From: Tepidisphaeraceae bacterium
GTDB taxonomy: Bacteria; Planctomycetota; Phycisphaerae; Tepidisphaerales; Tepidisphaeraceae
Reading direction: 5' to 3'
Length of the DNA stretch: 64,000 nucleotides
Assembly: GCA_035998445.1 (NCBI GenBank)
Contig: DASYHQ010000026.1
Span: 1 to 64,000, forward strand
Every line of letters starts with the position of its first letter. Position 1 is the stretch's first letter. Under the pieces are notes generated by a model, which saw nothing but the letters and a program-made list of their open reading frames with translations, did no database searches and was not told where the DNA came from. The position numbers and the translations under genes are program-made. Positions 11,209 to 63,689 of this stretch are shown piece by piece.

Positions 11209-11310
11209 GTTAATGATGATTGAATAACAGGAGGGATGTAAGTCAGATCGCTTCGTGATCGGTGGACGGCATCCCACGGTGGCAGATTCCTGAAGCAGCG
11301 TCAGGCCTCA

Positions 11311-11387
11311 TCATCCTGAGGCACTCAGAAGAATCTCTTCCACCCCACGTCACGGGGGAGGAGATCCTTCGAAGTACCTCAGGATGA
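11311..11387. repeat. intergenic palindrome, family A copy 1
   Basis: The left arm TCATCCTGAGGCACTCAGAA (11311 on) and the right arm ending AAGTACCTCAGGATGA (11387) form an imperfect inverted repeat of about 27 bp per arm with a short spacer. The same arms occur at 24538-24616 and 52604-52675. It lies between the PA14/DUF1080 gene end and the rpoB promoter. Confidence 0.85.
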
Positions 11388-11416
11388 CGGCACCTGCTAA
11401 CTCTTATCGCGAGCCT

Positions 11417-19045: not shown

Positions 19046-19206
19046 TGTCATCCCGATGGGAGGCTTGTCGACCTGAGGGATCTCTCAAAGCTGAGAACTG
19101 TCCGTGGTTCGAGATCCCTCAGGTCGCCAAGGCTCCCATCGGGATGACGGGCAAGGCATCCCGCGGAGGTTTTTCCGCTAGCCTTTAGGTGCCGCTCGGG
19201 ATGACA
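19046..19206. repeat. intergenic palindrome, family B copy 1 with satellite module
   Basis: The left arm begins TGTCATCCCGATGGGAGGCT (19046) and the right arm ends GGCTCCCATCGGGATGAC (19148). It is followed by a second module, TTTTTCCGCTAGCCTTTAGG up to a further GGGATGACA at 19206. The same second module recurs beside copies 2 and 5. The 455-base gap between ppk1 and rplL holds only this, the truncated C element and the rplL terminator. Confidence 0.85.
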
Positions 19207-23301: not shown

Positions 23302-23524
23302 CATCCCGATGGTGCCTTGGCAACCTTAGGGATCTCGACTTTACAAGCCACACTCGTAAGTTCGAGTTTCTTGCAGTCGCCTTAAGGCTAGCGGACAAAA
23401 CCTCCGCGTAAAGCCAAAACCTGTCATCCCGAGGGGAGCGGTAGCGACCCGAGGGATCGCCCACGGCCCGCACCGTCCCTCATTCGAGATCCCTCAGGTC
23501 GCTTCCGCTCCCATCGGGATGACA
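23302..23524. repeat. intergenic palindrome, family B copy 2 with satellite module
   Basis: A first module (GCATCCCGATGGTGCCTTGG at 23302 on, then AAGGCTAGCGGACAAAACCT near 23385) precedes a complete palindrome from TGTCATCCCGAGGGGAGCGG (23422) to CTCCCATCGGGATGACA (23524). It fills the gap between the YHYH gene and the rplK terminator. No gene is seen in 23288-23649. Confidence 0.85.
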
Positions 23525-23576
23525 TTCTGCAGGTGGCGATAGAGTTCGCCCCAGCGCGATCTCCCGTGAACAAGCG

Positions 23577-24505: not shown

Positions 24506-24537
24506 ACAATCACCTAGAGAATCGTCGTCACTCTACT

Positions 24538-24616
24538 CGTCATCCTGAGGTACTCCGAAGGATCTCTTCGAAACTGGACGATCCGAAGTGAACCTTCGGA
24601 GTACCTCAGGATGACG
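24538..24616. repeat. intergenic palindrome, family A copy 2
   Basis: The left arm CGTCATCCTGAGGTACTCCG continues AAGGATCT, and the right arm CCTTCGGAGTACCTCAGGAT ends GACG. This is the best-preserved copy of the family in the window, between nusG and the small membrane-protein gene. Confidence 0.9.
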
Positions 24617-24647
24617 AATCAATGCAGGCCGACGATCTTAGGCAATC

Positions 24648-29005: not shown

Positions 29006-29040
29006 ACTGGTATTGCCATCGGCGAGCCACACGCCGCAGA

Positions 29041-29144
29041 TGTCATCCCGAGCGGAGCCTAAGGCGACGGGAGGGATCTCGATTGTCGGTAGTCGCTAGA
29101 AGGTCGAGATCCCTCAGGTCTCCAAGGCTCCCATCGGGATGACA
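29041..29144. repeat. intergenic palindrome, family B copy 3
   Basis: Left arm TGTCATCCCGAGCGGAGCCT at 29041 and right arm ending GGCTCCCATCGGGATGACA at 29144. It lies between convergent genes (hydroxyacid dehydrogenase and lptD). Confidence 0.9.
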
Positions 29145-29237
29145 GTCTCAGGCCTCTCAGGTACGCAGCGGTTACCGGAGCGGCTTCTGGCTGACTGTCA
29201 TCGGTTGTTGCTTCCCCTTCCCTCTTCCGACGTCCCA

Positions 29238-32927: not shown

Positions 32928-33081
32928 TGGCCATCAACATACTTGATGCATGGGTTCCGGTCCCCTCTCCCGCGTACTCGCGGGGGAGGGCCAGGGAGGG
33001 GGCTGCGCGTACGATCGGGGACATGTCAGCGCTCGCGCCCCCACCCTAACCTTCCCCCGGCGTACCGGGAGAGGGGACCGG
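32928..33081. repeat. intergenic palindrome, family C copy 1
   Basis: The palindrome runs from CCGGTCCCCTCTCCCGCGTA (32957) to CGGGAGAGGGGACCGG (33081). The 25 bases outside its left arm (CATCAACATACTTGATGCAT then GGGTT) reappear inverted outside the right arm of copy 2 at 36499-36525, so the repeat unit is longer than the hairpin. Confidence 0.85.
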
Positions 33082-33223
33082 AGGGACGCGCGGGCACGGA
33101 GTGCGTCAGGTCTGTTGTTGCCCTTCCATGGCTTATGTCAGCCAGATCCGCCCCCACTGACTGGAAACGGCGTTTTTACGCCTCGAACCCGACAACCGTT
33201 TTTCCCATGCCGGCTGCCGGCCG

Positions 33224-33475
33224 CTCGTGCGAATGTCCGATCATCTCGTGCGAACGGGGCAGCGGCTCGTGCGAACGTCACATTCGCACGTGCGAACGTC
33301 GCATTTGCACGAGCAAACGTCGCATTTGCACGTGCGAACGTCGCGTTCGCACGAGGAAATGGCGCGCTCGCACGAGGGAATGCGTCATCCGCACGAGCAA
33401 ACGTCCCGTTCGCACGTGTGCCCGCCGCATTTTCCCGCGCGAATGCGGCGCCTCCTCGGGCGTTGGCCGCACGCG
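33224..33475. repeat. 21-bp tandem array of hairpin-forming units
   Basis: About 12 imperfect units of exactly 21 bp begin CACGTGCGAACGTCGCGTTC or a close variant. The best unit, in 33331-33360, contains GTGCGAACG-TCG-CGTTCGCAC, a perfect 9-bp inverted repeat around three bases, so each unit can fold back. Both strands have an open frame coding a heptapeptide repeat (A-F-A-R-A-N-V on plus), an automatic consequence of a 21-bp unit without stops. It lies between the family C copy 1 and glgP; nothing else is seen in 33082-33620. Confidence 0.85.
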
Positions 33476-36234: not shown

Positions 36235-36498
36235 TCTGGTCCCCTCTCCCGGTACTCCGGGGGAGGGTTAGGGTGGGGGCCACTCGACGCTACACCTAGG
36301 TCCTGTCTGAAACCCCCGCGTAGGGGCTGGCCTCCGTGCCTGCCCTTCTTCGTTTCGGGTGGAATCGAAGAGGGCAGGCACGGAGGCCTGCCCCTACGCG
36401 GTGGACTCAGACGACGTTCTCAGACAGAACCCTAAAGGTCTTGCCCCTCGCGCCCCCTCCATAGCCCTCAGGGGCGAGTAGGCGGGAGAGGGGACCGG
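36235..36498. repeat. family C palindrome copy 2, interrupted by a different palindrome
   Basis: The family C left half (TCTGGTCCCCTCTCCCGGTA at 36235 to about 36290) and right half (about 36441 to GGAGAGGGGACCGG at 36498) are separated by a foreign inverted repeat at 36299-36434. The gap from glgP to the GbsR gene (36192-36578) contains only these elements. Confidence 0.8.
36299..36434. repeat. inverted-repeat element nested inside family C copy 2
   Basis: Ends GGTCCTGTCTGA (36299-36310) and TCAGACAGAACC are inverted copies. An inner palindrome carries CCTCCGTGCCTGCCCTTCTT and its complement GAGGGCAGGCACGGAGGCCT with flanking CCCCTACGCG. The bases CCTA stand on both sides and could be a target duplication. 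Confidence 0.7.
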
Positions 36499-39200: not shown

Positions 39201-39329
39201 TTCCGGTCCCTCTCCCAAGTACTCATGGGAGAGGAGAGGTGAGGGTGATTTTCGACCTAATGACGGCCCTTGTTATTTGAGATCACCCTCACCCTAGCCC
39301 TCTCCCGGCGTACCTGGAGAGGGAACCGG
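39201..39329. repeat. intergenic palindrome, family C copy 3
   Basis: From TTCCGGTCCCTCTCCCAAGT (39201) to TGGAGAGGGAACCGG (39329), with the inner GAGGGTGATTTT / GATCACCCTCACC pair shared with copies 4 and 5. It ends 10 bases from the recA stop. Confidence 0.9.
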
Positions 39330-39339
39330 ATCCTGGGGC

Positions 39340-40882: not shown

Positions 40883-41000
40883 GGCATCCCGAACGGATCG
40901 CCTCGCGCGATCTGTAAGGCGACCTGAGGGATCTCGAACCACGGACGGTTCGCGGCCTTGGGAAACCCTCAGGTCGCCAAGGCTCCCATCCTGCATGACA
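40883..41000. repeat. intergenic palindrome, family B copy 4 (diverged)
   Basis: GGCATCCCGAACGGATCG at 40883, then ACCTGAGGGATCTCGAACCA, and right arm CTCAGGTCGCCAAGGCTCCC ending ATGACA at 41000. Between recA and pdxH (gap 40465-41037). Apart from this copy the gap shows no gene. Confidence 0.8.
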
Positions 41001-50412: not shown

Positions 50413-50430
50413 TATCGCGGTCACTACGAA

Positions 50431-50597
50431 TGTCATCCCGATGGGAGCCTCAGGCGACCTGAGGGATCTCGATCCACGGACGGTTCTCGGCCGTGGATCG
50501 AGATCCCTCAGGTCGGCTAGCCTCTCATCGGGACCACACTTCCCTGACCAAGCGCAGGGGTCTGTCCGCTAGCGTTTAGGCTCCGATCGGCATGACA
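50431..50597. repeat. intergenic palindrome, family B copy 5 with satellite module
   Basis: From TGTCATCCCGATGGGAGCCT (50431) through a right arm near 50505-50538, then the satellite TCTGTCCGCTAGCGTTTAGG and a final GGCATGACA (50597). It fills the osmC-epimerase gap. Confidence 0.88.
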
Positions 50598-52569: not shown

Positions 52570-52603
52570 TCGCCGTTCAACACGATCCCGACGCTATAAA
52601 ATC

Positions 52604-52675
52604 ATCATCCTGAGGTACTCCGAAGGATCTCTGTGATTCCGTGAAGAAGAACAGATATCCTTCGGAGTACCTCAG
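52604..52675. repeat. intergenic palindrome, family A copy 3 (interrupted)
   Basis: ATCATCCTGAGGTACTCCGA at 52604 and right arm TCCTTCGGAGTACCTCAG ending 52675. The last bases of the right arm (GATGACG) are displaced to 52851 by the inserted element at 52676-52846. Confidence 0.88.
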
Positions 52676-52846
52676 AGGGTGTTTATCAAGTCTGGCCCCT
52701 CTCCCATGTACTCATGGGGGAGGCTGGGAGGGGGTGATTTCGAAACGACGACAAGTGTCAGCCGTTCGGAATCACCCCCTCCCAGCCTCCCCCGGAGTAC
52801 CGGGAGAGGGGCCGGAGCGAGCCCCTCCGGCTTAATAAGCACCCTT
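52676..52846. mobile_element. family C palindrome copy 4 inserted into a family A palindrome
   Basis: The 171-bp segment has ends AGGGTGTTTATCA and TAATAAGCACCCT in inverted orientation and the family C hairpin inside (GGCCCCTCTCCCATGTACTC to AGTACCGGGAGAGGGGCCGG). It is bordered by TCAG on both sides (52672-52675 and 52847-52850), consistent with a short target duplication. It carries no gene. Confidence 0.75.
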
Positions 52847-52945
52847 TCAGGATGACGAGGCGCGGCGGGTCGACTCGAACTCTTCTGACGGACTCCCATC
52901 CCTTTCGTTGCCCGACAGCCATCGCACCGGTACCATCCGCGGCCT

Positions 52946-55529: not shown

Positions 55530-56027
55530 CTTCTGTAGGACAGGCATTCCTGCCTGTCTCTCCCCTCGTATTCTGTCTTCCCTCTTCTGTGGCACAAACA
55601 TTCTCGTCTGTGTATCCCCCGTCTTCTCTCCGTCTCTTCCAGTTGCTCTGATAGGAGGAGAAAGACTTTGACGCGAAGCTCGCGAAGGTGGAAACGCGAA
55701 GAGGCGCGAAGGGCGTTGCGCCAGATCGATGTTCTTCGCGCAGCGCGAGCGTAGAGATGGACCGCGTGTTCTTTGACAACCAAACGATCGATGCGCGGGT
55801 CAAGGTCAAGCTCCTGCCCGTCCACCCGATGGTGCAAAATGGTGCAGAATGGTGCACGTTTTCGGGTTTTGACTTACCCAGACCGCCGCGATCGGCCGGG
55901 TTCCCCTTCGCGTCCGCCTTCGCGACCTTCGCGCCTTCGCGTCTCTTCTATTCTTGGTTGCGCAAGGCAGACAGGGGGGAGAGTAGGACGGGGAGAGAGA
56001 CAGGCAGGAATGCCTGTCCTACAGAAG
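55530..56027. mobile_element. 498-bp gene-less element with 36-38-bp terminal inverted repeats
   Basis: CTTCTGTAGGACAGGCATTC...CTCTCCCC (55530-55565) is inverted at 55990-56027 (GGGGAGAGAGACAGGCAGGA...CTACAGAAG), nearly perfectly. Inside, a diverged direct copy of the left end lies at 55584-55621 (CTTCTGTGGCACAAACATTC), and a second inner inverted text near 55670-55720 and 55910-55950 uses CTTCGCG words (GCGAAGCTCGCGAAG / CCTTCGCGACCTTCGCG). No convincing ORF. Resembles a non-autonomous miniature element. No target duplication was identified. Confidence 0.65.
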
Positions 56028-63480: not shown

Positions 63481-63510
63481 GGGACAGATGGCGTTCAAAC
63501 CATTGCGACG

Positions 63511-63636
63511 TCTGGTCCCCTCTTCCGGTACTCCGGGAGAGGGGCAGGGTGAGGGTGATTGGTTCTTACGAGCATCGCCAGCAGTTCGAAATCACCCTCA
63601 CCTAGCCTCTCCCGGCGTACCGGGAGAGGGACCGGA
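63511..63636. repeat. intergenic palindrome, family C copy 5
   Basis: TCTGGTCCCCTCTTCCGGTA (63511) to GGGAGAGGGACCGGA (63636), with the inner GAGGGTGATT / AATCACCCTCA pair. Confidence 0.9.
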
Positions 63637-63689
63637 TGGACCCGACCATGCTTCGCGGCTTCCTTCGCGCCTTCGCGTTCTCCGCTGCA

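Follow-up and report, generated by a model that had tools for sequence, protein, structure and literature searches.

A probable IS1031-group MITE-like element with a preferred landing site in a REP-like palindrome of a Tepidisphaeraceae bacterium

Results

A family A palindrome is split by a 172-bp insert

The window (the whole 64-kb stretch of DNA that we analysed) contains three copies of a REP-like palindrome, family A: two are uninterrupted (11308-11389 and 24537-24617, both on the forward strand) and one, at approximately 52604-52857, is interrupted. Family A consists of CGTC followed by a hairpin that starts with AT (ATCCT..AGGAT), is arranged in inverted pairs and occurs in high copy number; at the interrupted locus, the uninterrupted A would read GAGTACCTCAGGATGACGA. 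In the interrupted copy, the left arm, the linker and most of the right arm run as far as CCTCA (52604-52674, forward strand), and the right arm continues from 52850 with GGATGACGA, the remaining outer end (GGATGACG) occupying 52850-52857 on the same strand. The initial annotation had recognised the broken right arm; the limits that it gave, CTCAG at 52675 and resumption at 52848, shift to CCTCA at 52674 and to 52850. The outermost arm sequences (52602-52613 and 52847-52858) show 92% pairing across the insert. Removal of the insert together with one TCA restores the A hairpin, at -33.0 kcal/mol, as compared with -24.5 kcal/mol when the outer piece is left out, and the rejoined arms align to the uninterrupted copy at 24537 with only a few substitutions.

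The insert (52675-52846, forward strand) is a MITE-like unit, hereafter E, with inverted ends GAGGGTGTTTATCAAG and CTTAATAAGCACCCTT. It carries a complete family C palindrome, as had been described, although its length is 172 bp rather than 171 bp. The palindrome (52691-52816, forward strand) consists of two arms in inverted orientation, and each arm contains a CCTCTCCC..GGGAGAGG-type hairpin of its own. The left terminal inverted repeat lies at 52675-52690 on the forward strand and the right one at 52831-52846 on the reverse strand, where the last base is T instead of C (CCCTT for CCCTC, a single substitution). These 16-bp ends are alike at 13 of 16 positions (GAGGGTGTTTATCAAG versus the reverse complement, AAGGGTGCTTATTAAG), a level of match seen in 7 of 200,000 trials with random pairs of window positions. 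When we searched the 64-kb window for CTSAGAGGGTGTTWAWKAA with up to three mismatches, we found two sites, which are the two ends of E, and none in 100 shuffles. As single-stranded DNA, the insert folds at -70.3 kcal/mol (z = -13). TCA stands on either side of it, at 52672-52674 and 52847-52849 (both forward strand). The duplication proposed in the initial annotation is thus real, but the TCAG reported there consists of a 3-bp TCA plus G, the first base of the inverted end GAGGGTGTTTATTAAG.

Several other repeats lie in the window. Five family B palindromes (GTCATCCCGATGGGAGC...GACCTGAGGGATCTC), similar in style to family A, are found at 19046-19148, 23421-23525, 29040-29145, 40895-40998 and 50430-50538. 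An array of 21-bp units (CGCACGTGCGAACGTCGCATT-like) with overlapping inverted repeats occupies 33222-33431, and inverted repeats of further families lie at 36305-36412 (GTAGGGGC..GGCACGGAGGCC) and 55530-56027 (TGTAGGACAGGCATTCCTGCCTGTC). An Rfam search of the window detected tRNAs only.

E units are numerous and carry exchangeable palindromes

A genome search with the DNA of the insert gave 74 matches, and a search with the ends plus flank (CTSAGAGGGTGTTWAWKAA) gave 43 and 39 matches, as compared with 0 for a reversed control pattern. Looking for further GAGGGTGTT-ended copies, as the initial annotation had advised, thus led to about 60 E units across the genome. The ends of 47 of these could be paired and read, a few of the weakest pairs (e.g. 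L143) being possibly false. Genome-wide, E is multicopy, approximately 165-270 bp long and devoid of a transposase gene, and its ends come in two flavours, GAGGGTGTTTATTAAG and GAGGGTGTTAAAGAAC.

Among the 47 paired units, family C is the cargo in 7 and another palindrome, D (ATGGGCG..CGCCCAT, present twice, inverted), in 39. Of the 27 distinct places with family C that we read, about 9 show both E ends, 4 a single end and 14 neither, as assigned by a threshold test in which some cases are marginal. We conclude that family C spreads independently of E. In the window itself, C palindromes without the E-end pattern lie at 32957-33082, 36235-36498, 39250-39330 and 63510-63643.

Some loci show further layers of nesting. 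At L107 (G000:C18:341000-342300), two E units, the first with D and the second with C, are packed into the remnants of one A copy. Four near-identical copies of a longer repeat (ATACGAATCGTGATTAA ... TTAATCACGATCCGTAT), in which A ends and E ends occur together with D, are present at L038 (G000:C26:247848), L039 (C35:57647), L041 (C58:31) and L042 (C64:50300), in all four cases at a contig end, which suggests that a multi-copy element of recent origin forms the next outer level of nesting.

E occupies one position in family A

We sorted the flanks of the E units by whether their family A sequence was of the outer (CGTCATC-) or of the inner (GGAGTAC-) kind. E touches family A in 43 of the 47 paired units and has it on both sides in 35. 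Judging roughly from the 207 matches to its arms, family A accounts for well below 1% of the genome; therefore, the placement of E in A is not due to chance. The order of the flanks is inner/outer in 16 units and outer/inner in 14, corresponding to insertion into the right or the left arm, and since A is a palindrome these two arrangements represent a single site. The inner/outer units have TCA on both sides in 14 of 16 cases, and the outer/inner units have TGA on both sides in 10 of 14, such that 24 of 30 A-embedded units show the exact duplication expected for their arm. The insertion point in A is nearly always C^TNA^G.

Four units have A on neither side by the flank test, and one of them, L109, is clearly outside A. 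Its flanks are ATTGCTGCCGATCTCA to the left of E and TCACGAATGCC to the right, and the bases at the junctions are CTCA/G...C/TCAC, indicating that the duplication is the 3-bp TCA. TCA is likewise duplicated in units outside A, namely L109, L121 and L098. We also considered a 5-bp duplication, CTCAG, and rejected it on the basis of the flanks of L109 and of an insertion sequence (IS) in G097, a genome from another genus. A type 1 REP association is defined by all copies being inserted at one position of a REP sequence; measured against this, use of A by E is near 100% rather than 100%, L109 at least being a clear exception.

In five units, both flanks are outer A sequence, mostly with TGA on the left and TCA on the right, an arrangement not expected from a single insertion. 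Together with chimeric units such as L124, in which family B and family A each provide one flank, these would be accounted for if homologous recombination or gene conversion between A-like repeats had brought E into place, with CTCAG being repeat sequence rather than a target duplication. However, most units combine an identical, arm-specific duplication with intact A linkers that differ from one unit to another, and the double-outer class can be explained by two E units in the two arms of one A. We infer that these five units fit two insertions into one A copy, followed by recombination between the E units. Hence, we regard recombination as an extremely unlikely origin for the arrangement in the window, and favour insertion of E by transposition.

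E units were inserted independently into pre-existing A copies

According to the initial annotation, the same fused structure at many unrelated loci would mean a single composite repeat rather than an insertion. The fused arrangement does recur, at at least 30 loci, and in some units (L002, L004) no more than about 12 bp of A remains on one side, as might be seen if A, E and C had spread as one unit and the locus in the window recorded no insertion of its own. We compared the similarity of E with that of the A linker among the 30 units with outer A sequence on one side and inner A sequence on the other. If the composite had spread as a unit the two should rise together, but they do not (r = 0.003, permutation p = 0.45). 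E units that share up to 97% identity are embedded in A copies whose linkers are only about 50% identical, and the E unit in the window is 92% identical to those at C18:50029 and C41:116299, yet the A linkers around these units are 60-70% alike; the average linker similarity over all pairs is 62%. A composite repeat is also at odds with insertions in either arm of A, with the TCA duplication of L109, which has no A flanks, and with the use of the same kind of site, in a different repeat, by an IS with similar ends in another genus. Thus, with E and linker similarity uncorrelated and a few units outside A, the recurrence does not carry the conclusion once attached to it: the lack of correlation indicates independent insertions into A copies that already existed, and spread of a composite repeat is very unlikely.

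The initial annotation had also regarded family C as the mobile unit. Insertion into a pre-existing A is upheld, but the mobile unit is the GAGGGTGTT-ended E, with C as its cargo. A different mover of C or E could be a RAYT-like Y1 (HUH) transposase acting as in REPINs, with the short repeat a coincidence: there are 8 matches to PF01797 in the genome, both C and D consist of paired REP-like hairpins, and C occurs also apart from E. Against this, the TNA duplication is exact in 24 of 30 A-embedded units; and among six PF01797 loci that we examined, a C or D hairpin is present in the stretch read at two and brackets the gene at none. HUH transposition is not known to generate a target duplication or to involve DDE-type inverted ends. 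Hence, the inverted ends and the target duplication led us to reject RAYT as the mover of E, and for the locus as a whole we hold this explanation to be highly improbable. RAYT-type spread of C and D themselves is plausible.

The ends of E resemble those of IS5-family elements in other genera

E has the properties of an IS1031-group MITE, namely terminal inverted repeats, a 3-bp TNA duplication and a short, gene-less, multicopy unit. Members of the IS1031 group, which belongs to the IS5 family, are about 860 bp long, target TNA with an exclusively 3-bp repeat, and carry two ORFs that overlap and are linked through a frameshift (PMC12016507).

Contigs of G012, a genome from another genus in this family, break off within a longer element that has the ends GAGGGTGTCCAAGAAGT; all known pieces of this element are fragments at the ends of contigs. 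These ends sit at CTCAG/CTGAG next to CATCC-type sequence, and two of three flanks are another CATCCTGAG repeat (GTCCTTCGACTCGCTGCGCTCGCTCAGGATGAC) that has 138 matches in G012. One end of the element encodes MARPPYETDLTDRQWRTLM.. and the other ends in GYRRLDRDYEFKPSNSVGMLWLGFIRLMLNRIWNC*; a Pfam search with these end fragments (20 and 35 aa) gave no match. Searching with the C-terminus identified homologous ISs in G342 and G053 and a 19-copy IS in G097. Two complete relatives are approximately 860-880 bp long, are flanked by TAA/TAA and TTA/TTA duplications, and contain two ORFs (split orfA/orfB) that match PF13340, PF01609/PF13586 and the NCBIfam entry NF033580, IS5 family transposase. In G097, the IS ends adjoin TNA in 19 of 19 cases and TNAG in 16 of 19. 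The first 8 bases of the E ends (GAGGGTGTTTATTAAG and GAGGGTGTTAAAGAAC) are identical to those of GAGGGTGTCCAAGAAGT in G012 and GAGGGTGTGTGAGAAG in G097 and G342; the remaining bases are only similar.

The initial annotation had proposed looking for a transposase with the ends of E. PF13340 and protein searches of this genome (assembly 95.5% complete) detected no autonomous IS with GAGGGTGTT ends; they detected three IS5-like loci, which are divergent (29-32% identity), the two that we examined having other ends. For a MITE, an autonomous partner in the same genome is usual but not a requirement. Scanning genome contigs for the end of the G012 IS yielded two single matches that are unrelated and consistent with chance. 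Judging from these sequence comparisons, the enzyme for E is likely an IS5-family, IS1031-group transposase.

In a second genus (G021), E-like units are found at the same position of that genome's own A-like repeat. In a third (G016), E-like ends (GAGCGTGTTTAAGAAC) surround GTAGCATGGGC..GCCCATGCTAC hairpins (L161-L165), outside any A-like repeat. The combination of E with D may therefore predate the use of A as a site.

Discussion

We propose that the insert at 52675-52846 is a MITE-like, non-autonomous member of the IS1031 group (IS5 family), placed by a transposase supplied in trans into a pre-existing family A copy, with A as its preferred landing site and C as a passenger; we consider this account very probable. 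The transposase would recognise the GAGGGTGTT... inverted ends of E, and E would enter the outer part of the A palindrome at C^TCA^G, duplicating TCA. Several tens of other A copies would have been hit independently, always at the equivalent base. The C palindrome would be passenger DNA of this E unit, with D in its place in others. Movement of E is deduced from sequence patterns of this kind; the transposase presumably comes from the IS clade found in G012 and in the other genera (G342, G053 and G097). Likewise, the preference may be for the A hairpin or the CATCCTGAG core rather than simply for a safe intergenic site, and C probably entered E after E existed.

More tentatively, and with less confidence than would be needed to prefer it, we suggest that an IS1031-group clade may have evolved recognition of REP-like palindromes with the CATCCTGAG core, and that its gene-less derivative might serve as an exchangeable carrier that brings REP hairpins (C and D here; A-like in the sister genus) into existing REPs, so that nested hairpins are built stepwise.

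The E units provide a countable case of one mobile element with a repetitive palindrome as its landing site and empty copies in the same genome. The nesting could be used to rank repeat families by age. The case also allows a direct test of whether sequence or hairpin shape is read by the transposase.

We compared E and family A with known systems. Members of the IS1031 group such as ISLrh have ends that start with GA and contain a TGT motif, and generate a 3-bp TNA duplication (PMC12016507), as does E; unlike them, E is about 165-270 bp long, lacks a transposase and is filled with other palindromes, and it uses a narrower target, C-TNA-G within a single repeat. A literature search on IS5-family MITEs in Planctomycetes yielded nothing on E. 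REPINs and BIMEs with their RAYT transposases resemble C and D, which are inverted pairs of short hairpins, in a genome with RAYT-like genes, whereas E has DDE-type ends and a TNA duplication. CGTC-tagged REPs, including Neisseria dRS3 (PMC3733652), share with family A the CGTC tag, the AT start, the inverted pairs and the high copy number. However, the stem of family A is 5+2 bp with a 2x2 internal loop, as opposed to 8-9 continuous pairs, and its tail is CTC, not CCA. We did not classify family A as a CGTC-tagged REP, because of its interrupted stem.

The closest parallel in insertion behaviour is the type 1 REP association, described for ISPsy8, ISPa11, ISPpu9/10, ISRm22 and ISRm19 (Tobes and Pareja 2006, PMC1525189). 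These ISs, like E, occupy a fixed position in a REP-like palindrome, with broken halves on both sides and a target that can be reconstructed; they differ in being autonomous IS3, IS110 or IS4 members with 4-10 copies, whereas E is gene-less, has tens of copies and shows a few exceptions. ISNm1106, with a looser type 2 association, is the sole IS5 member listed (PMC1525189). ISs that always break a REP at one base are already known (PMC1525189). What is new is a gene-less IS1031-group unit with exchangeable palindromic cargo that makes near-exclusive use of one base in one repeat, which extends fixed-position REP targeting from IS3, IS110 and IS4 (PMC1525189) to the IS1031 group of the IS5 family and to an element that has no genes.
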